Assembly (NCBI GenBank): GCA_027923505.1
Contig: BROI01000003.1
Span: 434,001 to 498,000 of the forward strand
From: Mayamaea pseudoterrestris
Taxonomy: Eukaryota; Bacillariophyta; Bacillariophyceae; Sellaphorales; Sellaphoraceae
Length of the DNA: 64,000 nucleotides
Direction of reading: 5' to 3'
Shown here piece by piece: positions 16,739-51,115 of this stretch (positions within the stretch are counted from its first letter, which is position 1; each line of letters opens with the position of its first letter). The notes beneath the pieces are model-generated. The model was given only the letters and a program-made list of their open reading frames with translations, did no database searches and was not told the DNA's origin. The position numbers and the translations under genes are program-made.

Positions 16739-19700
16739 AAAATTCAAACCACCCCAACAGCAGGCCATGTATACACCCAAATGACACCAGAATGGTGCCA
16801 ACATCCTTATTTAGGCTGCGCTACAAGATGGTATGCCTGGCTGGTGTCTCAGGGGATGGCAATGTATTTGGTGACAACTTGTCACCAGTCTCAGCCCGCA
16901 GATGCCTTGACATTCAAATGCCCCTACAGCAGGCCATGTATACACCCAAATAACACCAGAATGGTGTCAACATCATTATTTAGGCTGTGCTACAAGATGG
17001 TATGCCTGTCTGGTGTCTCAGGGAACGGCAATGTATTTGGTGACAACTTGTCACCAGTCTCAGCCCACAGATGCCTTGACATTCAAATGCCCCTACAGCA
17101 GGCCATGCATACACCCAAATGACACCAGAATGGTGCCAACCTCATTATTAAGGCAGCGCTACAAGATGGTATGCCTGGCTGGTGTCTCAGGGGACTGCAA
17201 TGTATTTGGTGACAACTTGTCACCAATCTCAGCCCGCAGATGCCATGACATTCAAATGCCCCTACAGCAGGCCATGTATACACCCAAATGACACCAGAAT
17301 GGTGCCAACATCATTATTCAGGCCGCGCTACAAGATGGTATGCCTGGCTTGTGTCTCAGGGGACTGCAATGTATTTGGTGACAACTTGTCACCAGTCTCA
17401 TCCCGCAGATGCCTTGACATTCAAACGCCCCTGCAGCAGGCCATGTATACACCCAAATGACACCAGAATGGCGCCAACATCATTATTTAGGCTGCGCTAC
17501 AAGATGGTATGCCTGGCTGGTGTCTCAGGGGACTGCAATGTATTTGGTGACAACTTGTCACCAGTCTCATCCCGCAGATGCCTTGACATTCAAACGCCCC
17601 TGCAGCAGGCCATGTATACACCCAAATGACACCAGAATGGCGCCAACATCATTATTTAGGCTGCGCTACAAGATGGTATGCCTGGCTGGTGTCTCAGAGG
17701 ACTGCAATGTATTTGGTGACAACTTGTCACCAGTCTCCGCCTACAGATTCCTTAACATTCAAACGCCCCAACAGCAGGCCATGTATACACCCAAATGACA
17801 CCAGAATGGAGCCAACATCATTATTCCGGCTGCACTACAAGATGGTATGCCTGGCTGGTGTCTCAGGGGATGGCAATGTATTTGGTGACAACTTGTCACC
17901 AGTCTCCGCCTGCAGATTCCTTGACATTCAAATGCCCCTACAGCAGGCCATGTATGCCACCAAATGACACCAGAATGGTGCCAACATCATTATTGAGGCT
18001 GCGCTAGAAGATGATATGCCTGGCTGGTGTCTCAGGGGATGGCAATGTATTTGGTGACAACTTGTCACCAGTCTCAGCCGGCAGATGCCTTGACATTCAA
18101 ACGCCCCTACAGCAGGCCATGTATACACCCAAATGACACCAGAATGGCGCCAACATCATTATTGAGGCTGCGCTACAAGATGGTATGCCTGGCTGGTGTC
18201 TCAGGGGATGGCAATGTATTTGGTGACAACTTGTCACCAGTCTCAGCCCGCAGATGCCTTGACATTCAAATGCCCCTACAGCAGGCCATGTATACACCCA
18301 AATGACACCAGAATGGCGCCAACATCATTTTTTAGGCTGCGCTACAAGATGGTATGCCTGGCTGGTGTCTCAGGGGACGGCAATGTATTTAGTGACAACT
18401 TGTCACCAGTCTCTGCCCGCAGATTCCTTGACATTCAAATGCCCCTTCAGCAGGCCATGTATACACCCAAATGACACCAGAATGGTGCCAACATCATTAT
18501 TGAGGCTGCGCTACAAGACGCTACAGTGGCATGTTTTGGTGACAACTTGTCACCAGTCTCAGCCGGCAGATGCCTTGACATTCAAATGCCCCTACAGCAG
18601 GCCATGGATACACCCAAATGACACCAGAATGGCGCCAACATCATTATTTAGGCTGTGCTACAAGATGGTATGCCTGGCTGGTGTCTCAGGGGATGGCAAT
18701 GTATTTGGTGACAACTTGTCACCAGTCTCAGCCCGCAGATGCCTTGACATTCAAATGCCCCTACAGCAGGCCATGTATACACCCAAATAACACCAGAATG
18801 GTGTCAACATCATTATTTAGGCTGTGCTACAAGATGGTATGCCTGGCTGGTGTCTCAGGGAACGGCAATGTATTTGGTGACAACTTGTCACCAGTCTCAG
18901 CCCACAGATGCCATGACATTCAAATGCCCCTACAGCAGGCCATGTATACACCCAAATGACACCAGAATGGTGCCAACCTCATTATTCAGGCTGCGCTACA
19001 AGATGGTATGCCTGGCTGGTGTCTCAGGGGATGGCAATGTATTTGGTGACAACTTGTCACCAATCTCAGCCCGCAGATGCCATGACATTCAAATGCCCCC
19101 ACAGCAGGCCATGTATACACCCAAATGACACCGGAATGGTGCCAACATCATTATTCAGGCCGCGCTACAAGATGGTATGCCTGGCTTGTGTCTCAAGGGA
19201 CTGCAATGTATTTGGTGACAACTTGTCACCAGTCTCATCCCGCAGATGCCTTGACATTCAAACGCCCCTGCAGCAGGCCATGTATACACCCAAATGACAC
19301 CAGAATGGTGTCAACATCATTATTTAGGCTGCGCTACAAGATGGTATGCCTGGCTGGTGTCTCAGGGGACTGCAATGTATTTGGTGACAACTTGTCACCA
19401 GTCTCATCCCGCAGATGCCTTGACATTCAAACGCCCCTGCAGCAGGCCATGTATACACCCAAATGACACCAGAATGGCGCCAACATCATTTTTTAGGCTG
19501 CGCTACAAGATGGTATGCCTGGCTTGTGTCTCAGGGGACTGCAATGTATTTGGTGACAACTTGTCATCAGTCTCAGCCCGCAGATGCCTTGACATTCAAA
19601 TGCCCCTACAGCAGGCCATGTATGCACCCAAATGACACCGGAATGGTGCCAACATCATTATATAGGCTGTGCTACAAGATGGTATGCCTGGCTGGTGTCT

Positions 19701-22700
19701 CAGGGGACTGCAATGTATTTGGTGACAACTTGTCACCAGTCTCAGCCCGCAGATGCCTTGACATTCAAATGCCCCTACAGCAGGCCATGTATGCACCCAA
19801 ATGACACCGGAATGGCGCCAACATCATTTTTTAGGCTGCGCTACAAGATGGTATGCCTGGCTGGTGTCTCAGGGGACGGCAATGTATTTGGTGACAACTT
19901 GTCACCAGTCTCATCCCGCAGATGCCTTGACATTCAAACGCCCCTTCAGCAGGCCATGTATACACCCAAATGACACCAGAATGGCGCCAACATCATTATT
20001 GAGGCTGCGCTACAAGATGGTATGCCTGGCTGGGGTCTCAGGGGATGGCAATGTATTTGGTGACAACTTGTCACCAGTCTCAGCCGGCAGATGCCTTGAC
20101 ATTCAAATGCCCCTACAGCAGGCCATGGATACACCCAAATGACACCAGAATGGCGCCAACATCATTATTTAGGCTGCGCTACAAGATGGTATGCCTGGCT
20201 GGTGTCTCAGGGGATGGCAATGTATTTGGTGACAACTTGTCACCAGTCTCAGCCCGCAGATGCCTTGACATTCAAATGCCCCTACAGCAGGCCATGTATG
20301 CACCCAAATGACACCGGAATGGTGCCAACATCATTATATAGGCTGTGCTACAAGATGGTATGCCTGGCTGGTGTCTCAGGGGACTGCAATGTATTTGGTG
20401 ACAACTTGTCACCAGTCTCAGCCCGCAGATGCCTTGACATTCAAATGCCCCTACAGCAGGCCATGTATACACCCAAATGACACCAGAATGGTGCCAACAT
20501 CATTATTCAGGCTGCGCTACAAGATGGTATGCCTGGCTGGTGTCTCAGGGGACTGCAATGTATTTGGTGACAACTTGTTACCAATCTCAGCCCGCAGATG
20601 GCAGGACATTCAAATGCCCCTACAGCAGGCCATGTATACACCCAAATGACATCAGAATGGCGCCAACATCATTATTCAGGCCGCGATACAAGATGGTATG
20701 CCTGGCTTGTGTCTCAGGGGACTGCAATGTATTTGGTGACAACTTGTCACCAGGCTCATCCCGCAGATGCCTTGACATTCAAACGCCCCTGCAGCAGGCC
20801 ATGTATACACCCAAATGACACCAGAATGGCGCCAACATCATTATTTAGGCTGCGCTACAAGATGGTATGCCTGGCTGGTGTCTCAGGGGACTGCAATGTA
20901 TTTGGTGACAACTTGTCACCAGTCTCATCCCGCAGATGCCTTGACATTCAAACACCCCTGCAGCAGGCCATGTATACACCCAAATGACACCAGAATGGCG
21001 CCAACATCATTTTTTAGGCTGCGCTACAAGATGGTATGCCTGGCTTGTGTCTCAGGGGACTGCAATGTATTTGGTGACAACTTGTCATCAGTCTCAGCCC
21101 GCAGACGCCTTGACATTCAAATGCCCCTACAGCAGGCCATGTATACACCCAAATGACACCAGAATGGCGCCAACATCATTATTTAGGCTGTGCTACAAGA
21201 TGGTATGCCTGGCTGGTGTCTCAGGGAGCGGCAATGTATTTGGTGACAACTTGTCACCAATCTCAGCCCGCAGATGCCTTGACATTCAAATGCCCCTACA
21301 GCAGGCCATGTATACACCCAAATGACACCAGAATGGTGCCAACATCATTATTGGGGCTGCGCGACAAGATGGTATGCCTGGCTGGTGTCTCAGGGGATGG
21401 CAATGTATTTGGTGACAACTTGTCACCAGTCTCAGCCCACAGATGCCTTAATATCAAATGCCCCTACAGCAGGCCATGTATACACTCAAATGACACCAGA
21501 ATGGTGCCAACATCATAATTTAGGCTGCGCTACAAGATGGTATGCCTGGCTGGTGTCTCAGGGGATGGCAATGTATTTGGTGACAACTTGTCACCAGTCT
21601 CAGCCCGCAGATGCCTTGACATTCAAATGCCCCTACAGCAGGCCATGTATACACCCAAATGACACCAGAATGGCGCCAACATCATTATTTAGGCTGCGCT
21701 ACAAGATGGTATGCCTGGCTGGTGTCTCAGGGGACGGCAATGTATTTAGTGACAACTTGTCACCAGTCTCTGCCCGCAGATTCCTTGACATTCAAATGCC
21801 CCTTCAGCAGGCCATGTATACACCCAAATGACACCAGAATGGTGCCAACATCATTATTGAGGCTGCGCTACAAGATGGTATGCCTGGCTGGGGTCTCAGG
21901 GGATGGCAATGTATTTGGTGACAACTTGTCACCAGTCTCAGCCGGCAGATGCCTTGACATTCAAATGCCCCTACAGCAGGCCATGTATACACCCAAATGA
22001 CACCAGAATGGCGCCAACATCATTATTTAGGCTGCGCTACAAGATGGTATGCCTGGCTGGTGTCTCAGGGGACGGCTGTTTGGTGACAACTTTCTCAGCC
22101 CTTCTGACCCCCAGCTCAGTGGGTGCCCCGCAGATGCCGGACATTCAAACGGCCCTACAGCATGGCCATGTATACACCATTCACCAGAATGGAACACATG
22201 TACACCCCGAAGGGCCCTCTTTTGCTGCGCTACAGATGGTATGCCTGGCTGGTGTCTCAGGGAACTGCAATGTATTTGGTGACAACTTGTCACCAGTCTC
22301 AGCCTCCAGATGCTTGACATTCAAACGCCCCTTCAGCAGGCCATGTATACACCCAAATGACACCAGATGCCAATCATTATACAGTCTGCACTACAAGATG
22401 GTATGCCTGGCTGGTGTCTCAGGGGATGGCAATGTATTTGGTGACAACTTATCACCATCTCAGCCCGCAGACCTCATCAAATGCCCCAAGAGACAGTCCA
22501 TACACCCCAATGACACCAGAATGGCGCCAACATCATTATGGAGGCTGCGCTACAAGATGGTATGCCTGGCTGGTGTCTCAGGGAGCGGCAATGTATTTGG
22601 TGACAACTTGTCACCAGTCTCAGCCCGCAGATGCCTTGACATTCAAATGCCCCTACAGCAGGCCATGTATACACCCAAATGACACCAGAATGGTGCCAAC

Positions 22701-25700
22701 ATCATTATTCAGGCTGCGCTACAAGATGGTATGCCTGGCTGGTGTCTCAGGGGATGGCAATGTATTTGGTGACAACTTGTCACCAGTCTCAGCCCGCAGA
22801 TGCCTTGACATTCAAATGCCCTGCAGCAGGCCATGTATACACCCAAATGACACCAGAATGGTGCACACATCATTATTTAAACTGCGCTACAAGATGTTTT
22901 GCCTGGCTGGTGTCTCAGGAGGCTCCAATGTGAATGGTGAGAAGTTCTCACCAGTCTCAGCCTGCAGGTGCCTTGACATTCAAATGCCCCTACAGCAAGC
23001 CATGTGTACACCCAAATGACACCAGAATGGCGCCAACATCATTATGGAGGCTGCGCTACAAGATGGTATGCCTGGCTTGTGTCTCAGGGGACTGCAATGT
23101 ATTTGGTGACACCGTCACCAGTCTCAGCCGCAGATGCCTTGACATTCAAATGCCCCTACAGCAGGCCAGTGTATACACCCAAATGACACCAGATGGTGGG
23201 CCAACATCATTATTTGGCTGCGCTACAAGATGGTATGCCTGGCTGGTGTCTCAGGGGTACTGCGGTGTATTTGGTGACAACTTGTCACCAGTCTCAGCCG
23301 CAGATGCCTTGACATTCAAATGCCCTACAGCAGGCCAGTATACCCAAATGACACCAGAATGGCGCCAACATCATTATTCGGGCTGCGCTACAAGATGGTA
23401 TGCCTGGCTGGTGTCTCAGGGGATGGCAATGTATTTGGTGACAACTTGTCACCAGTCTCAGCCCACAGATGCCTTGACATTCAAATGCCCCTACAGCAGG
23501 CCATGTATACACCCAAATGACACCAGAATGGTGCCAACATCATAATTTAGGCTGCGCTACAAGATGGTAGGCTTGGCTGGTGTCTCAGGGGTTGGCAATG
23601 TATTTGGTGACAACTTGTCACCAATCTCAGCCCGCAGATGCCTTGACATTCAAACGCCCCTGCAGCAGGCCATGTATACACCCAAATTACACCAGAATGG
23701 TGTTAACATCATTATGGAGACTGCGCTACAAGATGGTATGACTGGCTGATGTCTCAGGGGATGACAACGTTTTTGGTGACAACTTGTCACCAGTCTTAGC
23801 CCGCAGATGCCGCGACATTCAAACGCCCCTACAGCAAGCCCTATACACCCAAAATACACCAGAATGGTGCCAACATCATTATTCAGGCTGCGCTACAAGA
23901 TGGTATGCCTGGCTTGTGTCTCAGGGGACTGCAATGTATTTGGTGACAACTTGTCACCAGTCTCATCCCGCAGATGCCTTGACATTCAAACGCCCCTGAG
24001 CAGGCCATGTATACACCCAAATGACACCAGAATGGTGCCAACATCGTTATTTAGGCTGCGCTACAAGATGGTATGCCTGGCTGGTGTCTCAGGGGACTCA
24101 GCAGTGTATTTGGTGACAACTTGTCACCAGTCTCACCCGCAGATGCCTTGATATTCAAATGCCCTGCAGCAGGCCATGTATACACCCAAATGACACCAGA
24201 ATGGCGCCAACATCATTATTTAGGCTGCGCTACAAGATGGTATGCCTGGCTTGTGTCTCAGGGGACTGCAATGTATTTGGTGACAACTTGTCATCAGTCT
24301 CAGCCCGCAGATGCCTCGTGACATTCAAATGCCCCTACAGCAGGCCATGTACACCCAAATGACACCGGAATGGTGGCCAACATCATTATTTAGGCTGCGC
24401 TACAAGATGGTATGCCTGGCTGAGGTCTCAGGGGACGGCAATGTGTTTGGTGACAACTTGTCACCAGTCTCAGTCCAGATCTTGACATTCAAATGCCCCT
24501 ACAGCAGGGCCATGTATGCACCCAAATGACACCAGAATGGCGCCAACATCAATTTTAGGCTGCGCTCAAGATGGTAATGCCTGGCTGGTGTCTCAGGGAT
24601 GGCAATGTATTTGGTGACAACTTGTCACCAGTCTCCATCCTCGCAGATGCCTTGACATTCAAACACCCTACAGCAGGCCATGTATACACCCAAATGACAC
24701 CAGAATGGTGCCAACATCATTATTCAGGCTGCGCTACAAGATGGTAGGCTTGGTTGGTGTCTCAGGGGATGGCAATGTATTTGGTGACAACTTGTCACCA
24801 GTCTCAGTCCACAGATGCCGTGACATTTAAATGCCCCTACAGCAAGCCATGTATACACCCAAATTACACCAGAATGATGCCAACATCATTATTTTGACTG
24901 CGCTACAAGATGGTACGCTTGGCTGGTGTTTCAGGGGATGGCAACGTATTTGGGGACAACTTGTCACCAGTCTCAGCCCCCAGAGGCCGTGATTTTCAAA
25001 TGCCCCTACAGCAGGCCATGTATACACCCAAATGACACCAGAATGGTGCCAACATCAATATTTAGGCTGCGCTACAAGATGGTTTGCCTGGCTTGTGTGT
25101 CTCAGGGACTGCAATGTATTTGGTGACAACTTGTCCAGTCTCAGCCCACAGATGCCTTGTTGAGCCATGCACAATTGCCCCTACAGCAGGCCATGTATAC
25201 ACCCAAATGACACCAGAATGGTGCCAACCTCATTATTCAGGCTGCGCTACAAGATGGTATGCCTGGCTGGTGTCTCAGGGGACTGCAATGTATTTGGTGA
25301 CAACTTGTCACCAATCTCAGCCGGCAGATGCCTTGACATTTAAACATCCCAACAGCAGGCCATGTATACACCCAAATGACACCAGAATGGCGCCAACATC
25401 ATTATTTAGGCTGCGCTACAAGATGGTATGCCTGGCTGGTGTCTCAGGGGACTGCAATGTATTTGGTGACAACTTGTCACCAGTCTCATCCCGCAGATGC
25501 CTTGACATTCAAATGCCCCTACAGCAGGCCATGTATACACCCAAATGACACCAGAATGGTGCCAACATCATTTTTCAGGCTGCGCTACAAGATGGTATGC
25601 CTGGCTGGTGTCTCAGGGGATGGCAATGTATTTGGTGATAACTTGTCACCAGTCTCAGCTCCACAGATGCCGTGACATTCAAAGGCCCCTACAGCAGGCC

Positions 25701-27799
25701 ATGTATACACCCAAATGACACCAGAATGGTGCCAACATCATTTTTTTAGGCTGCGCTACAAGATGGTATGCCTGGCTTGTGTCTCAGGGGACTGCAATGT
25801 ATTTGGTGACACCTTGTCACCAGTCTCAGCCCGCAGATGCCTTGACATTCAAATGCCCCTACAGCAGGCCATGTATACACCCAAATGACACCAGAATGGT
25901 GCCAACATCATAATTGAGGCTACACTACAAGATGGTATGCCTGGCTGGTGTCTCAGGGGACTGCAATGTATTTGGTGACAACTTGTCACCACTCTCAGCC
26001 CGCAGATGCCTCGACATTCAAATGCCCCTACAGCAGGCCATGTATACACCCAAATGACACCAGAATGGTGCCAACATCATTATTCAGGCTGCGCTACAAG
26101 ATGGTATGCCTGGCTGGTGTCTCAGGGGACGGCAATGTATTTGGTGACAACTTGTCACCAGTCTCAGCCCACAGATGCCTTGACGTTCAAACACCTCTAC
26201 AGCAGGCCATGTATACACCCAAATGACACCAGAATGGTGCCAACATCATTATATAGGCTGTGCTACAAGATGGTATGCTTGGCTGGTGTCTCATGGGATT
26301 GCAATGTATTTGGTGACAACTTGTCACCAGTCTCAGCCCGCAGATGCCTTGACATTCAAATGCCCCTACAGCAGGCCATGTATACACCCAAATGACACCA
26401 GAATGGTGCCAACATCATTATTTAGGCTGCGCTACAAGATGGTATGCCTGGCTGGTGTCTCAGGGGATGGCAATGTATTTGGTGACAACTTGTCACCAGT
26501 CTCAGCCCGCAGATGCCTTGACATTCAAAGGCCCCTACAGCAGGCCATGTATACACTCAAATGACACCAGAATGGTGCCAACATCATAATTTAGGCTGCG
26601 CTACAAGATGGTATGCCTGGCTGGTGTCTCAGGGGACTGCAATGTATTTGGTGACACCTTGTCACCAGTCTCATCCCGCAGATGCCTTGACATTCAAATG
26701 CCCCTACAGCAGACCATGTATACACCCAAATGACACCAGATTGGCGCCAACATCATTATTCAGGCTGCGCTACAAGATGGTAAACCTGGTTGGTGTCTCA
26801 GGGGACTGCAATGTATTTGGTGACAACTTGTCACCAATCTCAGCCCGCAGATGCCTTGACATTCAAATGCCCCTACAGCAGGCCATGTATACACCCAAAT
26901 GACACCAGAATGGTGCCAACATCATTATTCAGGCTGCGCTACAAGATGGTATGCCTGGCTGGTGTCTCAGGGGATGGCAATGTATTTGGTGACAACTTGT
27001 CACCAGTCTCAGCCGGCAGATGCCTTGACATTCAAATGCCCCTACAGCAGGCCATGTATACACCCAAATGACACCAGAATCGTGCCAACATCATTATTCA
27101 GGCTGCGCTACAAGATGGTATGCCTGGCTGGTGTCTCAGGGGACTGCAATGTATTTGGTGACAACTTGTCACCAGTCTCAGCCCGCAGATGCCTTGACAT
27201 TCAAATGCCCCTACAGCAGGCCATGTATACACCCAAATGACACCAGAATCGTGCCAACATCATTTTTTAGGCTGTGCTACAAGATGGTAAGCCTAGCTGG
27301 TGTCTCATGGGATTGCAATGTATTTGGTGACAACTTGTCACCAGTCTCAGCCCGCAGATGCCTTGACATTCAAATGCCCCTACAGCAGGCCATGTATACA
27401 CCCAAATGACACCAGAATGGTGCCAACATCATTATTCAGGCTGCGCTACAAGATGGTATGCCTGGCTGGTGTCTCAGGGGACTGCAATGTGTTTGGTGAC
27501 AACTTGTCACCAATCTCAGCCCGCAGATGCCTTGACATTCAAATGCCCCTACAGCAGGCCATGTATACACCCAAATGACACCAGAATGGTGCCAACATCA
27601 TTATTTAGGCTGCGCTACAAGATGGTATGCCTGGCTTGTGTCTCAGGGGACTGCAATGTATTTGGTGACAACTTGTCACCAGTCTCAGCCCGCAGATGCC
27701 TTGACATTCAAATGCCCCTACAGCAGGCCATATACACCCAAATGACACCAGAATGGTGCCAACATCATTATATGGGCTGCGCTACAAGATGGTATGCCT

Positions 27800-30700
27800 G
27801 GCTGGTGTCTCAGGGGACTGCCATGTATTTGGTGACAACTTGTCTACTAGTCTCAGCCCGCAGACTTTGACATTTCAACAGGCCCCTACAGCAGGCCATG
27901 TATACACCCAAATGACACCAGAATCGTGCCAACATCATTTTTTAGGCTGTGCTACAAGATGGTAAGCCTAGCTGGTGTCTCATGGGATTGCAATGTATTT
28001 GGTGACAACTTGTCACCAGTCTCAGCCCGAGGATGCCTTGGCATTCAAATGCCCAGCAGGCCGTGATAAGGACTCAAATGACAAGAATGGTGCCAACATC
28101 TTTAGGCGGTACAGATGGTATGCCTGGCTTGTGTCTCAGGGGACTGCAATGTATTTGGTGACACCTTGTCACCTCTCTCATCCCGCAGATGCCTTGACAT
28201 TCAAACGCCCCTACAGCAGGCCATGTATACACCCAATTGACACCAGAATGGTGCCATCATCATTATTTAGGCTGCGCTAGTCAACAGATGGTATGCCTGG
28301 CTGGTGTCTCAGGAACGGCAAGCAGGAGTGGCATATAAGTGTTATGTGGTGACAACTTGTCACTAGTCTCTAGCTTCTCAGATGCCTTGACATTCAAATG
28401 CTCCTACAGCAGGCCATGTATACACTAAAATGACACCAGAATGGTGCCAACATCATTATTTATGCTCTGCTACAAGATGGGTATGCCTGGCTGGTGTCTC
28501 GAGGGAATAGCAATGTATTTGGTGACAACTTGTGTCACCAGTCTCAGCCCGCAGATGCCTTGGCATTCAAATGCCCCTACACAGGCAGGCCCTGTATATG
28601 ACACAAATGACACCAGAATGGTGCTAACATCGTACTTAGCTACAAGATGGTTTTTTTTGACTCAGGGACTGCAATGTATTTGGTGAAATGTCACCAGCCT
28701 CAGCCCGCAGATGCCTTGACATTCAAACGCCCCTACAGCAGGCCATGAGTTAAGACCAAATGACACCAGAATGGTGCCAACATCAATATTCAGGCTGCGC
28801 TACAAATGCGCTGGCTGTCTCAGTTTGTATATTTGGTGACAATTGTCACCACCCCAGCCCGCAGATGCGCCTTGACATTCAAATGCCCCTACAGCATGCC
28901 ATGCATACACCCAAATGACACCAGAATGGTGCCAACATCGTTATTCAGGCTGCGCTACAAGCTGGTATCTTGGATGGTGTCTCAGGGACTACAATGCAAT
29001 TGGTGACAACTTGTCACCAGTCTCAACTCGCAGATGCCTTGACATTCAAAATTCCTCTACAGCAGGCCATGTATACACTTAAATTACACCAGAATAGGTG
29101 CCAACATCATTATTCGGGCTGCCCAACAAGATGGTATGCCTGGCTGGTGTCTCAGGGGACTGCAATGATATTTTGGTGACAACTTGTCACCAGTCTCAGC
29201 CCGCAGATGCGTGCCGACATTCAAATCCCCTACAGCAGGCCATGTATACACCCAAATCACACCAGAATGGTGCCAACATCTCATTATTCAGGCTGCGCTA
29301 CAAGATGGTATGCTTGGCTGGGGTCTCAGGGGACTGAAATGATTTTGGTGACAACTCTGTCACCAATCTCAGCCTTCGCAGATGATTCTAAATGCCCCAC
29401 CAGCATGCCATGTATACACCCAATGACACCAGAATGGTGCCAACATCATTATTTCAGGCTGCGCAACACAGAATGGTATGCTTGGCTGGTGTCTCAGGGG
29501 ACTGCATATGATATTGGTGACAACTTGTCACCAATCTCAGCTTGCAGATGCCTTGACATTCAAATGCCCCCTACAATGAGGCCATTAGAGGTTCCCCGAA
29601 ATCCGACACCAGAATGGTGCCAACATCATTATTCAGGCTGCGAAACAAGATGGTATGCTTGGCTGGTGTCTCCAGGGGACTGCAATGGTTTTGGTGACAA
29701 CTTGTCACCGATCTCAGCCCGCAGATGCCTTGCAGACATTCAAATGCCCCACAGCAAGGCCATGTATTACACCCAATGACACCAGACTGCGTCGCCACTG
29801 ATTTGGGGGCTGCGCTACAAGCTGGTATGCTTGGATGGTGTCTCCGTGAACTGCAATCGTATTTGGTGACAGCTTGTCTGTCTCGTACCATGACATTCAA
29901 ACCCCTACAACGAAGCCATGTATGCGCCGTCGCACCATTGATGCAACATCATTATTAGGCTGCTCTTACAGTCTGGTACGCTTGGATGGTGTCTCCAGGA
30001 ACTACCGTGTGGTGATAAGGTTGTCGCCAGTCTCGATAATGTGCCTTCGACATTCAAGCGCCCTGCAGCGGCAGGCCGTATGCCCCAAATCACGCCCCGG
30101 CGTTTTTCCGGCTCGCTACAAGCTGGTTAGCTTGGATGGTGTCAGAGGGCTGCAATGATATTAGAGGCGACATTCGAGTCTCGGCTTGCAGATGCCTTAA
30201 CTGATCAACCCTACAGCAATGGCGCGTCCAAATCACGCCAGAATGATGCGATAACCAGGCTGCGCTACAATCTGGTACGCTTGGGTGGTGTCTCAGTGAA
30301 CTACTGTGTATTGGTGACAATTTGTCACCAGTCTCAGCTTCGCAGATTTGTGACATTCAAACCCCTACAGCCGACCATGTATCCCAAATCACACCGGAAT
30401 GATGCACCAACGCGTCGTTGACAATCGTTCTTAAGCAAGATGGTATGCATGGATGGCGTGTCTCGGTGGCTGCAATGTGACAACTCGGTCTCCCGCCGGG
30501 ACTGCGCTGCCCCTAGCAAGCCATGCCATGCGCCCGATGAAATGCCAGCATCATTATTCAGGCTGCGCAATAAGATGGTATAGTTGGCTGCAGGGTCTCA
30601 GAAGACTGAGTCATTGGTGACAACTTGTCCACCAGTCTCAGCTTCGCCAGGTGCCTTCGGCATTCAAATCACCCCTACGGCATGCCATGTACACCCAAAT

Positions 30701-32222
30701 CACACCAAAATGATGCCAACATCATTATTCAGGCTCAACAAGATGGTATGCTTGGATAATGTCTCAGTAGACTGCAATGATATACAAGTTGTCACCAGTC
30801 TCACCGCAGATGCCTTGACATTCAAGCGGCCTACGAGCGAGCCGTTCCCAAATACCAGAATTGCCAGCATCGTTGTTCAGGCTGCACCAACAGATTGGTA
30901 TGTGGCTGGGGTCCTCCCAGAGGACAACTTGTAGTCTCAGCCTGCAGGTGCGCCGCATTGTATTACGCCTTACTGCGATCACCAGGGCTAATCAACGTCG
31001 TTATTCCGGGCTGCTCTACAATCTGGTACGCTTGGATTTGTCTGCAATGTTTGGTGACAACTTGTCACCGGTCTCAGCCACAGATGCCTTGACATTGCCC
31101 TACAGCAAGCCATGTATACACCCCGTCCACGCAGAATGATGAGCATCATTATTCGGGCTGCTCTACAAATGGTATGCCCGGATGGTGTCTCTCAGTGGAC
31201 TGCAATCATATTGGTGACAACTTGTCAATGCCGGCATCGCAGATGCTTGGACATTCAGAGCACTCTACCACAGCAAGCCGTATGCAATAAATTGATGCCC
31301 GGCATCATTGTTGGGCTGCGCAACAGGATGGTATGCGGCTGGGGTCTCGGCTGCAATCATGTTGTTGAGCAACTTGTCACCGGTCTCATCCGCCAGATGC
31401 GCGACATTCAAGCGCCCCTGCAGCAGGCCCCCTCCAGTGCGGTTTTGGGCTGTCTCTGTGGTATGGCGGATGGTGTCTCACTGCATTGATGTGGTGACAA
31501 CATCACGCAGTCTCAGCTTCGCAGATGCCTTGACATTCAAACACCCTGCAGCAAGCCCGTGTATACGCAAATCACCGGAATGATGCAGCATCATTATTCA
31601 GGCTGCGCAACAGAGATGAGTAATAGCGCTGGGGTCTCGCTGCAATCATATTGGTGACAACATCGGTCTCGGGTTCGTTGACATTCCAAACCCCTGCAGA
31701 AGCCGTATCTACCCAAATCACCAGAATGATGCCAGCATCGTTATTCCCGGGCTGTACCAACAAGATGGTATGCTTGGCTGGGGTCTCAGAAGACTGCAAT
31801 CATATTGGTGACAGCTTGTCACCAGTCAGCCTGCAGATGCAGCCTTGACTTCGCGCCCTACAGCAACCCCTTCATTATTCAGCTGCGCTACAAGCTGGTT
31901 TTGCCCAGATGGTATCTCAGTAGACTGCAATGTGATTGGTGACAACTTGTCTCACCACGTCTCAGCCTGCGAATGCATTTATACATTCGCGCATTCATAC
32001 ATTCACACATTCTTCACGCATTCACTCATTCATTCCCCGCATTGCATTCCATATTCACGCATTCACGCATTTTCATGCATTCACACATTCACGCATTCAC
32101 GCCATTCCGCGTCACGCATTCACATTCGTGCATTGCGCATTCACGCATTCACGCATTCACGCATTCCCCCATTCACATTGGCATTCATGCGTCCATTCAT
32201 GCATTCACGCTTACGCATTCCG
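27800..32222. repeat. Decayed part of the 169-bp array, with a CATTCACG island
   Basis: Here monomer borders become hard to follow. Units at about 28000-31970 have frequent indels, and several are recognisable mainly by the dyad and by the CAACATCATTATTCAGGCTG segment. At about 31973-32222 the satellite gives way to a simple-sequence island built on the 8-mer CATTCACG with many variants, after which the satellite resumes. No gene was recognised. Confidence 0.8.
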
Positions 32223-34850: not shown

Positions 34851-35010
34851 ACAGTCAGCCAGCAGCTGCATCGTAGCGGTTATGAGTGTCGTATTGGTAC
34901 TCGGAGGACCTGCGCGATCATCGACAACCACCATGGGAGAAGGAGTTTGAGCGCCGACGTTAATCTCATACTTCTTAAACAGACATTCATACTTGATCTC
35001 ATCATCTGGC

Positions 35011-40329: not shown

Positions 40330-43300
40330 TCACTAGTCATGGCAAGCAAACACTTATGTATGCATTAGTGAGACTCAGCTTGCAGATCTAACAACTTGTT
40401 GGATCTGCTAGCAGTGCACCTCAAGTGGCACTTCAGACTGCCTGAACGGCCTGCCAATACTGGAATACAATGCGCATTGTGTTTCCATTTGATTCGGACT
40501 CAAAGACTTGTCACCTTGGGTGTGGAACCCATCCCTTTGCCATGAGACTCTGCACATTCAACCAATGGTTGAATGTGCCAGCGGTGCACCCTTTTTGGCT
40601 ACAGGAATCATCAGCGCTGCCTTCTGAGCCCTGAGATCCTTTCCAATTCATGTTTGGTGTCATGATGGGCCAATGATTTGGTCAGTTGCGCCCATTCCAC
40701 TCTCCACCACCATGTATGCCATGGTGAGAATCAGCTTGCAGATCCAACAACTTGTTGGATCTGCTAGCAGTGCACCTCAAGTGGCACTTCAGACTGCCAG
40801 AATGGCCTGCCAATAAAGGACTACAATGAGCATTGTGTTTCAATCTGATTTGGACTCAAAGGCTTGTCACCTTGGGTGTGGAACCCATCCCTTGGCCATG
40901 AGACTCCGCACATTCATTCAATGGTTGAATGTGCCAGCGGTGCACCCTTTTTGGCTACAGGGATCATCAGCGCTGCCTTCTGAGTCTGAAATCCTTTCCA
41001 ATTCATGTTTGGTGTCATGATAGGCCAATGATTTGGTCAGTTGCACCCATTCCAGTCTCCACCACCATGTATGCCATGGTGAGACTCAGCTTGCAGATTA
41101 AACAACTTGTTGGATTTGCTAGCAGTGCACCTCAAGTGGCACTTCAGACTGCCATTATGGCCTGCCTATAAAGGAATACAATGAGCATTGTGTTTCCTTT
41201 TGATTAGGACTCAAAGACTTGTCACCTTGGGTGTGGAACCCATCCTTTTGCCATGAGACTCCGCACATTCAACTAATGGTTGAATGTGCCAGCGGTGCAC
41301 CCTTTTTGGCTACAGGGATCATCAGCGCTGCCTTCTGAGCCCTGAAATCCTTTTTCATTCATGTTTGAGGTCATGATGGGCCAATGATTTGGTCAGTTGC
41401 GCCCATTCCAGTCTCCAACACCAGGTATGCCATGGTGAGACTCAGCTTGCAGATCCGACAACTTGTTGGATCTGCTAGCAGTGCACCTCAAGTGGCACTA
41501 TAGACTGCCAGAATGGCCTGCTAATAAAGGAATACAATGAGAGTGTTTCATTCTGATTAGGACTCAAAGACTTGGCACCTTGGGTGTGGAACCCATCCCT
41601 TTGCCATGAGACTCCGCACATTCAACCAATGGTCGAATGTGCCAGCAGTGCACCCTTTTTGGCTACAGGGATCATCAGCGCTGCCTTCTGAGCCCTGAAA
41701 TCCTTTTTAATTCATGTTTGAGGTCATGATGGGCCAATGATTTGGTCAGTTGCGCCCATTCCAGTCTCCACCACCATGTATGCCATGGTGAGACTCAGCT
41801 TGCAGATCCAACAAATTGTTGGATCTGCTAGCAGTGCACCTCAAGTGGCACTTCAGACTGCCAGAATGCCTGCCAATACAGGAATACAATGAGAGTGTTT
41901 CATTCTGATTAGGACTCAAAGACTTGTCACCTTGGGTGTGGAACCCATCCCTTTGCCATGAGACTCCGCACATTCAACCAATGGTCGAATGTGCCAGCAG
42001 TGCACCCTTTTTGGCTACAGAGATCATCAGCGCTGCCTTCTGAGCCCTGAAACCCTTTTAAATTCATGTTTGGTGTCATGATGGGCCAATGATTTGGTCA
42101 GTTGCGCCCATTCCAGTCTCCAACACCAGGTATGCCATGGTGAGACTCAGCTTGCAGATCCGACAACTTGTTGGATCTGCTAGCAGTGCACCTCAAGTGG
42201 CACTATAGACTGCCAGAATGGCCTGCTAATAAAGGAATACAATGAGCATTGTGTTTCAATCTGATTTGGACTCAAAGGCTTGTCATCTTGGGTGTGGAAC
42301 CCATCCCATTGCCACGAGACTCCGCACATTCAATCAATGGTTGAATGTACCAGTGGTGCACCCTTTTTGGCTACAGGGATCATCAGCGCTGCCTTCTGAG
42401 CCCTGAAATCCTTTCCAATTCATGTTTGGTGTCATGATGGGCCAATGATTTGGTCAGTTGCGCCCATTCCAGTCTCCACCACCGTGTATGCCATGGTGAG
42501 ACTCAGCTTGCAGATCCAACAACTTGTTGGATCTGCTAGCAGTGCACCTCAAGTGGCACTTCAGACTGCCAGAATGGCCTGCCAATAAAGGAATACAATG
42601 AGCATTGTGTTTCAATCTGATTTGGACTCAAAGACTTGTCACCTTGGGTGTGGAACCCATCCCTTGGCCATGAGAACCCGCACATTCAACCAATGGTTGA
42701 ATGTGCCAGCGAAGCACCCTTTTTGGCTACAGGGATCATCAGGGCTGCCTTCTGAGCCCTGAAATCCTTTCCAATTCATGTTTGGTGTCATGATGGGCCA
42801 ATGATTTGGTCAGTTGCGCCCATTCCAGTCTCCAACACCAGGTATGCCATGGTGAGACTCAGCTTGCAGATCCAACAACTTGATGGATCTGCTAGCAGTG
42901 CACCTCAAGTGGCACTTCAGACTGCCAGAATGCCTGCCAATAAAGGAATACAATGAGCATTGTGTTTCAATCTGATTTGGACTCAAAGACTTGTCACCTT
43001 GGGTTTGGAACCCATCACTTGGCCATGAGAACCCGCACATTCAACCAATGGTTGAATGTGCCAGCGGTGCACCCTTTTTGGCTACAGGGATCATCAGCGC
43101 TGCCTTCTGAGCCCTGAAATCCTTTCTAAGTCATGTTTGAGGTCATGATGGGCCAATGATTTGGTCAGTTGCGCCCACCCATTCCAGTCTCCACCACCAT
43201 GTATGCCATGGTGAGACTCAGCTTGCAGATCCAACAAATTGTTGGATCTGCTAGCAGTGCACCTCAAGTGGCACTTCAGACTGCCAGAATGGCCTGCCTA

Positions 43301-46300
43301 TAAAGGACTACAATGAGCATTGTGTTTCCATTTAATTTGGACTCAAAGACTTGTCACCTTGGGTGTGGAACCCATCCCTTTGCCATGAGACTCCGCACAT
43401 TCAATCAATGGTTGAATGTGCCAGCAGTGCACCCTTTTTGGCTACAGGGGTCATCAGCGCTGCCTTCTGAGCCCTGAAATCCTTTCTAAGTCATGTTTGG
43501 TGTCATGATGGGCCAATAATTTGGTCAGTTGCGCCCACCCATTCCAGTCTCCACCACCATGTATGCCATGGTGAAACTCAGCTTGCAGATCCAACAACTT
43601 GTTGGATTTGCTAGCAGTGCACCTCAAGTGGCACTTCAGACTGCCAGAATGGCCTGCCAATAAAGGAATACAATGAGCATTGTGTTTCCGTATGATTAGG
43701 ACTCAAAGACTTGTCACCTTGGGTGTGGAACCCATCCTTTTGCCATGAGACTCCGCACATTCAACCAATGGTTGAATGTGCCAGCGGTGCACCCTTTTTG
43801 GCTACAGGGATCATCAGCGCTGCCTTCTGAGCCCTGAAATCCTTTCCAATTCATGTTTGGTGTCATGATGGGCCAATGATTTGGTCAGTTGCGCCCATTC
43901 CAGTCTCCACCACCATGTATGCCATGGTGAGACTCAGCTTGCAGATCCAACAACTTGTTGGATCTGCTAGCAGTGCACCTCAAGTGGCACTTCAGACTGC
44001 CAGAATGGCCTGCCTAGAAATACACCAAGTTTCTGATTTGGACTCAAAGGCTTGTCACCTTGGGTGTGGAATCCATCCCTCTGCCATGAGACTCCGCACA
44101 CTTGTCAACCATGTTGGGTGTGCCATGCACCCTTTTGCTACATGAGCATCATCACGCAGCCTTCTGAGCACTGAAAATCCTTTTAATTCATGTTTGGTGT
44201 CATGATGGGCCAATGATTTGGTCAGTTGCGCCCACCCATTCCAGTCTCCACCACCATGTATGCCATGGTGAGACTCAGCTTGCAGATCCAACAACTTGTT
44301 GGATCTGCTAGCAGTGCACCTCAAGTGGCACTTCAGACTGCCAGAATGGCCTGCCAATAAAGGAATACAATGAGCATTGTGTTTCCATTTAATTTGGACT
44401 CAAAGGCTTGTCACCTTGGGTGTGGAACCCATCCCTTTGCCATGAGAACCCGCACATTCAACCAATGGTTGAATGTGCCAGCGGTGCACCCTTTTTGGCT
44501 ACAGGGATCATCAGCGCAGCCTTCTGAGCACTGAAATCCTTTCCAATTCATGTTTGGTGTCATGATGGGCCAATGATTTGGTCAGTTGCACCCATTCCAG
44601 TCTCCACCACCATGTATGCCATGGTGAGACTCAGCTTGCAGATCCAACAACTTGTTGGATCTGCTAGCAGTGCACCTCAAGTGGCACTTCAGACTGCCAG
44701 AATGGCCTGCCAATAGAGGGATACAATGAGCATTGTGTTTCCATATGATTAGGACTCAAAGGCTTGTCGCCTTGGGTGTGGAACCCATCCCTTTGCCATG
44801 AGACTCCGCACATTCAACCAATGGTTGAATGTGCCAGCGGTGCACCCTATTTGGCTACAGGGATCATCAGCGCTGCTTTCTGAGCCCTGAAATCCTTTCC
44901 AATTCATGTTTGGTGTCATGATGGGCCAATGATTTGGTCAGTTGCGCCCATTCCAGTCTCCAACACCAGGTATGCCATGGTGAGGCTCAGCTTGCAGATC
45001 CAACAACTTGTAGAATATGCTAGCAGTGCACCTCAAGTGGCACTTCAGACTGCCAGAATGGCCTGCCTATAAAGGAATACAATGAGCATTGTGTTTCCAT
45101 TTAATTCGGACTCAAAGGCTTGTCACCTTGGGTGTGGAACCCATCCCTTTGCCATGAGACTCCGCACATTCAATCAATGGTTGAATGTGCCATTGGTGCA
45201 CCCTTTTTGGCTACAGGGATCATCAGCGCTGCCTTCTGAGCCCTGAAATCCTTTCCAATTCATGTTTGGTGTCATGATGGGCCAATGATTTGGTCAGTTG
45301 CGCCCACCCATTCCAGTCTCCACCACCGTGTATGCCATGGTGAGACTCAGCTTGCAGATCCAACAACTTGTTGGATCTGCTAGCAGTGCACCTCAAGTGG
45401 CACTTCAGACTGACAGAATGGCCTGGCAATTAAGGAATACAATTAGCATTGTGTTTCAATCTGATTTGGTCTCAAAGGCTTGTCACCTTGGGTGTGGAAC
45501 CCATCCCTTGGCCATGAGACTCCGCACATTTGACCAATGGTTGAATGTGCCAGTGGTGCACCCTTTTTGGCTACAGGGATCATCAGCGCTGCCTTCTGAG
45601 CCCTGAAATCCTTTCTAAGTCATGTTTGGTGTCATGATGGGCCAATGATTTGGTCAGTTGCGCCCATTCCAGTCTCCACCACCATGTATGCCACGGTGAG
45701 ACTCAGCTTGCAGATCCAACAACTTGTTGGATCTGCTAGCAGTGCACCTCAAGTGGCACTTCAGACTGCCAGATTGGCCTGCCAATAACGGAATACAATG
45801 AGAATTGTGTTTCCATTTGATTTGGACTCAAAGGCTTGTCACCTTGGGTGTGGAATCCATCCCTCTGCCATGAGACTCCGCACATTCAATCAATGGTTGA
45901 ATGTGCCATTGGTGCACCCTTTTTGGCTACAGGAATCATCAGCGCAGCCTTCTGAGCCCTGAAATCCTTTTTTATTCATGTTTGGTGTCATGATGGGCCA
46001 ATGATTAAGTCAGTTGCGCCCGTTCCAGTCTCCACCACCATGTATGCCATGGTGAGACTCAGCTTGCAGATCCAACAACTTGTTGGATCTGCTAGCAGTG
46101 CACCTCAAGTGGCACTTCAGACTGCCAGAATGCCTGCCAATAAAGGAATACAATGAGCATTGTGTTTCAATCTGATTTGGACTCAAAGACTTGTCACCTT
46201 GGGTTTGGAACCCATCACTTGGCCATGAGAACCCGCACATTCAACCAATGGTTGAATGTGCCAGCGGTGCACCCTTTTTGGCTACAGGGATCATCAGCGC

Positions 46301-49300
46301 AGCCTTCTGAGCACTGAAATCCTTTCCAATTCATGTTTGGTGTCATGATGGGCCAATGATTTGGTCAGTTGCACCCATTCCAGTCTCCACCACCATGTAT
46401 GCCATGGTGAGACTCAGCTTGTATATCCGACAACTTATTGGATCTGCTAGCAGTGCACCTCAAGTGGCACTTCAGACTGCCAGAATGGCCTGCCAATAGA
46501 GGGATACAATGAGCATTGTGTTTCCATATGATTAGGACTCAAAGACTTGTCACCTTGGGTGTGGAACCCATCCCTTTGCCAGGAGACTCCGCACATTCAT
46601 TCAATGGTTGAATGTGCCAGCGGTGCACCCTTTTTGGCTACAGGGATCATCAGCGCTGCCTTCTGAGCCCTGAAATCCTTTCCAATTCATGTTTGGTGTC
46701 ATGATGGGCCAATGATTTAGTCAATTGCGCCCATTCCAGTCTCCAACACCAGGTATGCCATGGTGAGACTCAGCTTGCAGATCCAACAACTTGTAGGATA
46801 TGCTAGCAGTGCACCTCAAGTGGCACTTCAGACTGCCAGAATGGCCTGCCAATAAAGGAATACAATGAGCATTGTGTTTCAATCTGATTTGGACTCAAAG
46901 ACTTGTCACCTTGGGTGTGGAACCCATCCCTTGGCCATGAGACTCCGCACATTCAACCATTGTGCCAGCGGTGCACCCTTTTTGGCTACAGGGATCATCA
47001 GCGCTGCCTTCTGAGCCATGAAATCCTTTCCAATTCATGTTTGGTGTCATGATGGGCCAATTGTTTAGTCAGTTGCGCCCATTCCAGTCTCTACCACCAT
47101 GTATGCCATGGTGAGACTCAGCTTGCAGATCCGACAACTTGTAGGATCTGCTAGCAGTGCACCTCAAGTGGCACTTCAGACTGCCAGATTGGCCTGCCAA
47201 TAACGGAATACAATTGCACCTCAAGTGGCACTTCAGACTGCCAGAATGGCCTGCCAATAAAGGAATACAATGAGCATTGTGTTTCCGTATGATTAGGACT
47301 CAAAGACTTGTCACCTTGGGTGTGGAACCCATCCTTTTGCCATGAGACTCCGCACATTCAACCAATGGTTGAATGTGCCAGCGGTGCACCCTTTTTGGCT
47401 ACAGGGATCATCAGCGCTGCCTTCTGAGCCCTGAAATCCTTTCCAATTCATGTTTGGTGTCATGATGGGCCAATGATTTGGTCAGTTGCGCCCATTCCAG
47501 TCTCCACCACCATGTATGCCATGGTGAGACTCAGCTTGCAGATCCAACAACTTGTTGGATCTGCTAGCAGTGCACCTCAAGTGGCACTTCAGACTGCCAG
47601 AATGGCCTGCCTAGAAATACACCAAGTTTCTGATTTGGACTCAAAGGCTTGTCACCTTGGGTGTGGAATCCATCCCTCTGCCATGAGACTCCGCACACTT
47701 GTCAACCATGTTGGGTGTGCCATGCACCCTTTTGCTACATGAGCATCATCACGCAGCCTTCTGAGCACTGAAAATCCTTTTAATTCATGTTTGGTGTCAT
47801 GATGGGCCAATGATTTGGTCAGTTGCGCCCACCCATTCCAGTCTCCACCACCATGTATGCCATGGTGAGACTCAGCTTGCAGATCCAACAACTTGTTGGA
47901 TCTGCTAGCAGTGCACCTCAAGTGGCACTTCAGACTGCCAGAATGGCCTGCCAATAAAGGAATACAATGAGCATTGTGTTTCCATTTAATTTGGACTCAA
48001 AGGCTTGTCACCTTGGGTGTGGAACCCATCCCTTTGCCATGAGAACCCGCACATTCAACCAATGGTTGAATGTGCCAGCGGTGCACCCTTTTTGGCTACA
48101 GGGATCATCAGCGCAGCCTTCTGAGCACTGAAATCCTTTCCAATTCATGTTTGGTGTCATGATGGGCCAATGATTTGGTCAGTTGCACCCATTCCAGTCT
48201 CCACCACCATGTATGCCATGGTGAGACTCAGCTTGCAGATCCAACAACTTGTTGGATCTGCTAGCAGTGCACCTCAAGTGGCACTTCAGACTGCCAGAAT
48301 GGCCTGCCAATAGAGGGATACAATGAGCATTGTGTTTCCATATGATTAGGACTCAAAGGCTTGTCGCCTTGGGTGTGGAACCCATCCCTTTGCCATGAGA
48401 CTCCGCACATTCAACCAATGGTTGAATGTGCCAGCGGTGCACCCTATTTGGCTACAGGGATCATCAGCGCTGCTTTCTGAGCCCTGAAATCCTTTCCAAT
48501 TCATGTTTGGTGTCATGATGGGCCAATGATTTGGTCAGTTGCGCCCATTCCAGTCTCCAACACCAGGTATGCCATGGTGAGGCTCAGCTTGCAGATCCAA
48601 CAACTTGTAGAATATGCTAGCAGTGCACCTCAAGTGGCACTTCAGACTGCCAGAATGGCCTGCCTATAAAGGAATACAATGAGCATTGTGTTTCCATTTA
48701 ATTCGGACTCAAAGGCTTGTCACCTTGGGTGTGGAACCCATCCCTTTGCCATGAGACTCCGCACATTCAATCAATGGTTGAATGTGCCATTGGTGCACCC
48801 TTTTTGGCTACAGGGATCATCAGCGCTGCCTTCTGAGCCCTGAAATCCTTTCCAATTCATGTTTGGTGTCATGATGGGCCAATGATTTGGTCAGTTGCGC
48901 CCACCCATTCCAGTCTCCACCACCGTGTATGCCATGGTGAGACTCAGCTTGCAGATCCAACAACTTGTTGGATCTGCTAGCAGTGCACCTCAAGTGGCAC
49001 TTCAGACTGACAGAATGGCCTGGCAATTAAGGAATACAATTAGCATTGTGTTTCAATCTGATTTGGTCTCAAAGGCTTGTCACCTTGGGTGTGGAACCCA
49101 TCCCTTGGCCATGAGACTCCGCACATTTGACCAATGGTTGAATGTGCCAGTGGTGCACCCTTTTTGGCTACAGGGATCATCAGCGCTGCCTTCTGAGCCC
49201 TGAAATCCTTTCTAAGTCATGTTTGGTGTCATGATGGGCCAATGATTTGGTCAGTTGCGCCCATTCCAGTCTCCACCACCATGTATGCCACGGTGAGACT

Positions 49301-51115
49301 CAGCTTGCAGATCCAACAACTTGTTGGATCTGCTAGCAGTGCACCTCAAGTGGCACTTCAGACTGCCAGATTGGCCTGCCAATAACGGAATACAATGAGA
49401 ATTGTGTTTCCATTTGATTTGGACTCAAAGGCTTGTCACCTTGGGTGTGGAATCCATCCCTCTGCCATGAGACTCCGCACATTCAATCAATGGTTGAATG
49501 TGCCATTGGTGCACCCTTTTTGGCTACAGGAATCATCAGCGCAGCCTTCTGAGCCCTGAAATCCTTTTTTATTCATGTTTGGTGTCATGATGGGCCAATG
49601 ATTAAGTCAGTTGCGCCCGTTCCAGTCTCCACCACCATGTATGCCATGGTGAGACTCAGCTTGCAGATCCAACAACTTGTTGGATCTGCTAGCAGTGCAC
49701 CTCAAGTGGCACTTCAGACTGCCAGAATGCCTGCCAATAAAGGAATACAATGAGCATTGTGTTTCAATCTGATTTGGACTCAAAGACTTGTCACCTTGGG
49801 TTTGGAACCCATCACTTGGCCATGAGAACCCGCACATTCAACCAATGGTTGAATGTGCCAGCGGTGCACCCTTTTTGGCTACAGGGATCATCAGCGCAGC
49901 CTTCTGAGCACTGAAATCCTTTCCAATTCATGTTTGGTGTCATGATGGGCCAATGATTTGGTCAGTTGCACCCATTCCAGTCTCCACCACCATGTATGCC
50001 ATGGTGAGACTCAGCTTGTATATCCGACAACTTATTGGATCTGCTAGCAGTGCACCTCAAGTGGCACTTCAGACTGCCAGAATGGCCTGCCAATAGAGGG
50101 ATACAATGAGCATTGTGTTTCCATATGATTAGGACTCAAAGACTTGTCACCTTGGGTGTGGAACCCATCCCTTTGCCAGGAGACTCCGCACATTCATTCA
50201 ATGGTTGAATGTGCCAGCGGTGCACCCTTTTTGGCTACAGGGATCATCAGCGCTGCCTTCTGAGCCCTGAAATCCTTTCCAATTCATGTTTGGTGTCATG
50301 ATGGGCCAATGATTTAGTCAATTGCGCCCATTCCAGTCTCCAACACCAGGTATGCCATGGTGAGACTCAGCTTGCAGATCCAACAACTTGTAGGATATGC
50401 TAGCAGTGCACCTCAAGTGGCACTTCAGACTGCCAGAATGGCCTGCCAATAAAGGAATACAATGAGCATTGTGTTTCAATCTGATTTGGACTCAAAGACT
50501 TGTCACCTTGGGTGTGGAACCCATCCCTTGGCCATGAGACTCCGCACATTCAACCATTGTGCCAGCGGTGCACCCTTTTTGGCTACAGGGATCATCAGCG
50601 CTGCCTTCTGAGCCATGAAATCCTTTCCAATTCATGTTTGGTGTCATGATGGGCCAATTGTTTAGTCAGTTGCGCCCATTCCAGTCTCTACCACCATGTA
50701 TGCCATGGTGAGACTCAGCTTGCAGATCCAACAACTTGTAGGATATGCTAGCAGTGCACCTCAAGTGGCACTTCAGACTGCCAGATTGGCCTGCCAATAA
50801 CGGAATACAATGAGAATTGTGTTTCCATTTGATTTGGACTCAAAGGCTTGTCACCTTGGGTGTGGAATCCATCCCTCTGCCATGAGAACCCGCACATTCA
50901 ACCAATGGTTCAATGTGCCAGCAGTGCACCCTTTTTGGCTACAGGGATCATCAGCGCAGCCTTCTGAGCCCTGAAACCCTTTTAATTCATGATGTGGCAC
51001 TTCAGACTGCCAGAATGGCCTGCCAATAAAGGAATACAATGAGCATTGTGTTTCAATCTGATTTGGACTCAAAGACTTGTCACCTTGGGTGTGGAACCCA
51101 TCCCTAAATGGGATT
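40330..51115. repeat. 355-bp satellite array (about 30 units)
   Basis: The anchor GAGACTCAGCTTGCAGATC and its variants occur at 40370, 40726 and 41081, giving a 355-bp period that holds to about 51100. Each unit carries two near-perfect dyads with a one-base centre: GATCCAACAA / TTGTTGGATC and CATTCAACCA / TGGTTGAATG. Units are generally very similar, with a few shortened or rearranged ones (about 44030-44160, 47210-47220, 50990). Short frames of 60-100 residues recur unit by unit and are not genes. The array lies between the plastid-type gene and the P5A ATPase. Confidence 0.96.
43619..50812. repeat. Tandem 3,597-bp duplication inside the 355-bp array
   Basis: Segment 43619-47215 is repeated at 47216-50812 with an offset of exactly 3,597 bp. 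Private variants are shared between copies, such as the rearranged unit at 44020-44160 and 47617-47757. Only a few differences were seen, near the distal ends. The internal junction at 47216 cuts a monomer (GGAATACAATTGCACC), showing that the duplication is not a whole number of 355-bp units. Confidence 0.9.

Follow-up and report, generated by a model that had tools for sequence, protein, structure and literature searches.

In human alpha satellite, units of about 170 bp carry the CENP-B box, a short site that is read by a protein and is not a dyad. Here we describe two satellite families of the pennate diatom Mayamaea pseudoterrestris (genome of 30.6 Mb in 41 contigs) whose units carry perfect inverted repeats, or dyads, around a single central base. 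Both occur in the window, a stretch of 64,000 nucleotides (positions 434001 to 498000 of contig C3): a 169-bp satellite at 16637..34870 and a 356-bp satellite at 40354..51105, both on the plus strand. The sequences incline us, if only slightly, to the view that these dyads would be sites for a homodimeric protein, placed at intervals of about one nucleosome length in two satellites that share a core.

The closest precedent comes from Meloidogyne: the available portions of two papers describe a 17-bp CENP-B box-like motif that is conserved in 11 divergent satellites and propose it as a protein-binding site (PMC3694981, PMC9673304; the latter prints the full human CENP-B box). As in those portions, a short motif is conserved in Mayamaea across otherwise dissimilar satellites. 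The Meloidogyne motif, however, is presented there as resembling the human CENP-B box, whereas the Mayamaea site is a perfect inverted repeat with a one-base centre and occurs in two satellites. Dyad symmetry itself is shared with centromeric DNA in which symmetries able to form cruciforms have been described (Kasinathan and Henikoff, as cited in the accessible part of PMC9070824). Those dyads are given as under 10 bp and not of one letter sequence, whereas the Mayamaea dyads measure 19 to 27 bp and have conserved letters. The macro-dyad satellites of Tribolium are, in the available text of PMC13081366, arrays inverted over tens of kilobases; they share with Mayamaea an inverted symmetry in abundant satellites, but in Mayamaea the symmetry ends with the dyad. 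A macro-dyad reading of the 356-bp unit, suggested by minus-strand matches, was rejected when masking of the dyads left no such match, with shuffles in agreement. Our literature search found no paper on the satellites of M. pseudoterrestris, judged by titles and the starts of abstracts, and none devoted to diatom satellites among the matches listed.

The preliminary description of this DNA had likened the role of the dyads to that of the CENP-B box. Like the site in human alpha satellite, the Mayamaea site is short and lies in a unit of the ~170-bp type, where a protein would likewise do the reading; unlike it, the Mayamaea site is a dyad, and the CENP-B core is absent. Indeed, TTCGNNNNANNCGGG, which we take to be that core, had no match in three unit consensi or in the window, and its best match within a unit had two of nine positions wrong and lay off the dyad. 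Several separate arrays of the 356-bp satellite lie on contig C1 (near 679-683, 709-711, 2207-2210, and 2357-2376 kb), which argues against one centromeric array, and PMC7082073 characterises Phaeodactylum centromeres as short, AT-rich, and non-repetitive. On these grounds a CENP-B-like centromere role is not upheld, and the comparison holds as an analogy only.

Both arrays were delimited with Tandem Repeats Finder and by mapping of the array ends. In the 169-bp array, the dyad normally occurs once per unit (first instance TGGTGACAACTTGTCACCA, 16869..16887), and its 17-mer GGTGACAACTTGTCACC has 62 exact copies in the window, with starts from 16870 to 34381. The 356-bp array comprises 29.8 copies (~30 units), with a true period of 356 bp and not the 355 bp given earlier. 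The dyad previously reported in this unit (dyad 1) is present, with 14 exact copies as GATCCAACAACTTGTTGGATC (starts 40741 to 49666), but its full length is 27 bp (GCAGATCCAACAACTTGTTGGATCTGC; first exact copy at 40738..40764, 14 exact copies). As first described, the 169-bp dyad and dyad 1 are both perfect, have a one-base centre, and share the core ACAACTTGT (62 and 14 exact copies, respectively), which is found 105 times in the window in all. A second 27-bp dyad of the 356-bp unit (dyad 2), GCACATTCAACCAATGGTTGAATGTGC with core ACCAWTGGT, had been overlooked; its first exact copy is at 40552..40578, and there are 11 exact copies. Dyads 1 and 2 are spaced 170/186 bp apart and are 71% alike over 52 bp; by inspection, three arm pairs differ between them, each complementary.

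Across the genome, ACAACTTGT was counted 5492 + 4966 times versus 173 + 165 for its reversed control, and AACAANTTGTT was found at 803 sites versus 66. For GGTGACAACTTGTCACC there were 3924 + 3747 = 7671 exact copies versus 0 + 0; if each of these at least 7671 copies stands for one 169-bp unit, the family makes up about 4% of the 30.6-Mb genome. The satellites are spread over many genomic loci. On contig C1, dyads of the 169-bp type occur at five separate places (near 610, 951, 1242, 1310, and 2712 kb), of which only the one near 610 kb was shown as a long array. Palindromes with arms of at least 7 bases numbered 532 odd versus 7 even in 232,834 bases of the window and fetched loci, the choice of the latter having been guided in part by the dyads (L003-L008 were left out of this count). 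In 92,594 bases beyond the satellites, 4 such palindromes were odd and 6 even, where about 5.7 of each were expected. Long odd palindromes are characteristic of the 169- and 356-bp satellites.

The preliminary description had also proposed that the 169-bp dyad is better kept than its surroundings in the decayed part of the array (28000-34870, as distinct from the clean part, 16752-28000), and this was confirmed both by mapping and by alignment-free counts. The mapping made no use of unit edges, the identity of the dyad was ranked among the 169 windows of the unit, and the difference between dyad and rest was bootstrapped; loci L004-L008, which overlap L003, were left out of this and the later monomer and centre analyses. 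Dyad identity was 0.983 versus a unit mean of 0.952 in the clean part (rank 2 of 169) and 0.844 versus 0.750 in the decayed part (rank 2 of 169; bootstrap interval of the difference, 0.055-0.158). In seven fetched stretches of other 169-bp arrays it was 0.969 versus 0.894 (rank 1), and in 29 diverged loci it was 0.797 versus 0.741 (rank 20), the lower rank being due to subfamily differences at position ±3 and at the centre. The dyad thus lay above the rest of the unit in all four sets, with every bootstrap interval above zero. Without alignment, the dyad 17-mer had 12 exact copies in the decayed stretch, the top count among 169 phases, for which the median was 3 and the best value away from the dyad 9; in the 29 diverged loci it came second among the 169. 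One of the intact copies in the decayed stretch lies at 29002..29018, and the other 11 start at 28001, 29175, 29516, 29693, 31053, 32592, 33712, 33868, 34039, 34213, and 34381; the six examples given earlier are real, at positions (29002, 29175, 31053, 33712, 34213, and 34381) that had been off by up to 5 bp. Among 10 monomers less than 80% alike, chosen as representatives of 409, the arms within ±9 were nearly invariant and split only at ±3 (C/G) and at the centre (C/G).

In the 356-bp family, it is dyad 2 that carries the conservation. Units from the window and from L009-L025 entered the first comparison of the 356-bp dyads, and a comparison between clades used 10 of 22 locus consensi, hand-picked from the tree. 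Among these 10 representatives, pairwise identity was 0.728 outside the dyads versus 0.930 in dyad 2, which ranked first of 356 windows, with 23 of its 27 columns invariant. Conservation above background therefore holds for the 169-bp dyad and for dyad 2 and fails between clades for dyad 1 (0.785, rank 126 of 356).

The pattern of change within the dyads bears on whether their letters or their pairing are kept. In dyad 2 the variable positions are mainly ±2 and the centre, and in the 169-bp dyad mainly ±3 and the centre. We consider a structural role unlikely, in which the dyad would be maintained as a single-stranded DNA or RNA hairpin or as a cruciform, with its pairing and not its letters under constraint. 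The five dyads tested all fold as DNA hairpins of 8 to 12 bp closed by a 3-base loop, with energies of -7 to -12.3 kcal/mol that no shuffle equalled, as such a structure would predict. Compensatory arm changes, expected of the hairpin that the preliminary description had offered beside a protein site, are seen in part, at ±3 and ±10 of the 169-bp dyad, ±7 of dyad 1 (two copies), and ±2 of dyad 2. Also in favour of structure is pair ±3 of the 169-bp dyad, at which both arms had changed in 36 copies from 22 loci versus 14 one-sided changes (395 of 446 monomers, as ungapped 25-mers). The same holds genome-wide, where the 17-mer with both arms changed was counted 56 times (on the opposite strand) versus 9 and 15 for the single-arm forms; in the window this variant, GGTGAGAAGTTCTCACC, lies at 22936..22952 and, near the end of the array, at 34830..34846. 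Pair ±10, however, was compensated in 13 copies and one-sided in 344. Pairs ±3 to ±12 of dyad 2 showed no change among the 10 clade representatives although the units differ by 27% elsewhere, so that pairing alone is not what is kept; structure alone should let these pairs covary. At ±2 of dyad 2, AA, CC, and a mismatched ACAA/ACCA hybrid are each the state of whole arrays, which a pairing constraint would not predict and which reads as a half-site position that may accept A or C. The would-be loop positions argue the same way: ±1 is A/T in 58 of 60 listed sites (of 647) and is invariant among the 356-bp clade representatives, in which the centre does vary, a pattern that does not resemble the 3-base loop of a hairpin.

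The centre base itself is constrained as a base pair and tied to the core. Three core states occur (ACAASTTGT, AGAASTTCT, and ACCAWTGGT), and subfamilies of both satellites differ in core; a scattered 169-bp subfamily, for example, has a 25-bp dyad GACTGGTGAGAASTTCTCACCAGTC with core AGAASTTCT. Over the window and all fetched loci except L004-L008, the centre was C/G in 448 and A/T in 7 sites with ACAA, 0 versus 106 with ACCA, and 38 versus 0 with AGAA; by family-locus, the centre classes stood at 44:5 versus 0:14. The 17-mer of the 169-bp dyad had a C/G centre 7671 times and an A/T centre 54 times in the genome. Within loci of at least four units, 12 of 16 alleles at the 169-bp centre were complementary versus 395 of 1604 elsewhere (p = 3.6e-5). 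A symmetric dimer would see no difference between C:G and G:C, so that flips between C and G are expected, and such changes fit selection on duplex DNA; they fit equally well an occasional inversion of the centre via a hairpin.

Beyond the dyad, the 169- and 356-bp units are dissimilar, as had been judged by eye: profile searches in both directions gave a best E-value of 0.53 (positions 17-70 of the 169-bp profile). Homology of the two satellites was rejected as the source of the shared core, given the lack of profile homology and dyad flanks that were null in three of four comparisons, with p = 0.04 once (p = 0.38, 0.04, 0.39, and 0.35). What the two satellites have in common is the ACAASTTGT core of the dyad; the outer arms differ. 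ACAANTTGT was absent from nine stretches of other satellites, which have units of 163-183 bp and fall into six families by BLAST, in line with the earlier expectation for a core not at chance frequency, albeit in a small sample; in the unit consensi of eight of those stretches, the longest perfect dyad arm was 6. By itself the shared core is no more than suggestive. It gains weight because the C/G centre class is also common to both satellites, and because dyad 2 holds ACAASTTGT in the clade whose dyad 1 is broken. Among 235 units of the 356-bp family, ACAANTTGT was found in dyad 1 only in 139, in dyad 2 only in 32, in both in none, and in neither in 64. The 32 belong to one clade (L014, L015, and L033; support 1.000) that is 65-73% identical to other loci outside the dyads, with dyad 1 broken and an ACAASTTGT core in dyad 2.

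The constrained site common to two unrelated satellites, as proposed in the preliminary description, thus stands, and of the two natures offered for it a protein site fits better than a hairpin, because the outer arms keep their letters, the hybrids form array states, and the centre pair is constrained. In the mechanism that we propose, a sequence-specific homodimer would sit on duplex DNA at each two-fold-symmetric dyad, with sites spaced by roughly the length of a nucleosome, at 169 bp in the one family and 170/186 bp from dyad to dyad in the 356-bp unit. Each subunit would read some 9-13 bp as a half-site that has A(C/G)AA or AC(A/C)A at its end, with the half-sites one base pair apart; the centre pair seen in the sequences is C:G in either orientation with ACAA or AGAA half-sites and A:T with ACCA. 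We infer that a protein reads the dyads, that one protein may serve both satellites, and that it may organise satellite chromatin. A further, doubtful extension is a system of the diatom's own, in which one homodimeric protein would have selected the same palindrome, roughly one for each nucleosome, in two satellites that arose separately, the site having switched dyads in the 356-bp family. A symmetric site that keeps its letters in decayed and diverged copies, with a core common to a second, unrelated satellite, would make the question of what reads satellite DNA in a diatom experimentally simple.

Several observations weigh against the homodimer-site interpretation. Copies within one array are not independent. 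A chance match of four central arm pairs has odds of about 1 in 256, and these pairs were singled out only after the sequences had been inspected. Dyad 1, the bearer of the shared core in the window, is the dyad that is not conserved between clades, and it is broken or truncated in several loci; the 64 units with ACAANTTGT in neither dyad belong here as well. The switch of the core to dyad 2 is the property of one clade and not of many events. The locus consensi that have the hybrid at ±2 (L018, L024, L034, and L042) all show A on the left and G on the right, a fixed orientation for which the present data give no reason. Counted per locus, complementary changes of the centre did not reach significance, at 2 of 7 in dyad 1 and 3 of 5 in dyad 2 (p = 0.12). 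In the clean array, the dyad 17-mer ranked only 19th of 169 in the alignment-free count, and the units have other patches whose conservation comes close to that of the dyad. Finally, a search of the genome with the DDE_1 family for a CENP-B or pogo-like protein as a candidate reader found none, but the same search matched none of 14 control genomes.

Less likely again is selfish amplification, in which the dyad would be needed for copying or spread of the arrays (by rolling circle or template switching) and would have no host function. Monomers nearest the 169-bp consensus nearly all have an intact dyad (identity 0.997 where flanks are at least 95%), the satellites are dispersed, and some of the close junctions between the two satellites lie near a 356-bp dyad, as this would predict; eight such junctions were seen, too few to test. 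Array ends, however, are spread over the unit and do not cluster at the dyad, so that dyads were rejected as insertion or array-end points. The dyad also remains above background in the decayed stretch, and the fairly homogeneous 356-bp arrays L017, L018, and L023 lack the core in both dyads. Neutral palindrome upkeep, with arms correcting each other by template switching and the shared core a coincidence of the four central pairs, is improbable. Such copying would be expected to yield compensated pairs and centres flipped to their complement, and both are seen; yet arm-to-arm copying should not, we argue, slow the letter change of a pair, whereas dyad 2 changes much more slowly than the sequence around it, and the tie of centre class to core is left without explanation.

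Other well-kept patches were seen in both units. In favour of the homodimer-site interpretation, about half a unit from the 169-bp dyad two further TGGTGNCA half-sites lie back to back (identity 0.884 versus 0.792 in 86 diverged monomers; p = 0.007 by base shuffles, with the half-site chosen post hoc). In the 356-bp unit, the patch TGCCATGGTGAGACT lies at a TGAGACT motif, which first occurs in the array at 40369..40375 (plus strand), 5' of the first dyad 1, and recurs in the next half unit at 40543-40549, 5' of dyad 2. The complement of TGAGACT stands beside the dyad in the 169-bp unit consensus; its significance is weak, and it may be due to chance.

The flanks of the 356-bp array (39436-40354 and 51120-52388) recur on contig C9 (locus L009) with 93% and 97% identity. 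L009 is a duplicated locus, in which a shorter array of the 356-bp satellite lies between like flanks and the array lengths differ. Direct junctions of 169- and 356-bp arrays were seen in L020 (about 802-815), L042 (about 814-828), and L012 (about 975-981), some at or near a dyad. On two different contigs, an unrelated 180-bp satellite abuts a 169-bp array near a dyad (L026, 1851-4195; L030, 3867-4875); the junction is identical and in the same unit phase at both, and the 180-bp family also occurs in L003 (1-512).

The remainder of the window holds further repeats and few clear genes. Searches of the window with Rfam at the gathering threshold and for tRNAs gave none. Adjoining the 169-bp array, an uninterrupted reading frame of 1951 codons with an RVT_2 domain (9866-15721) is a copia-type retrotransposon; comparison of this frame with solved structures gave no match. 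An ATPase gene (52281-55463, minus strand) encodes a product with 100% identity to a hypothetical protein of M. pseudoterrestris, and a gene of the Dymeclin family (55599-58214) lies between the repeats. Six listed blocks of the 13-bp repeat AAGATGTGCTGAG lie inside longer repeats at 3587-5859. A third satellite, at 1-3259, has 174-bp units in 18.7 copies; its sole dyad, GCTATCAATTGATACC, is imperfect, even, and 16 bp long with an 8-bp arm, and relatives of this satellite occur in L021, L023, L025, L049, and L055.

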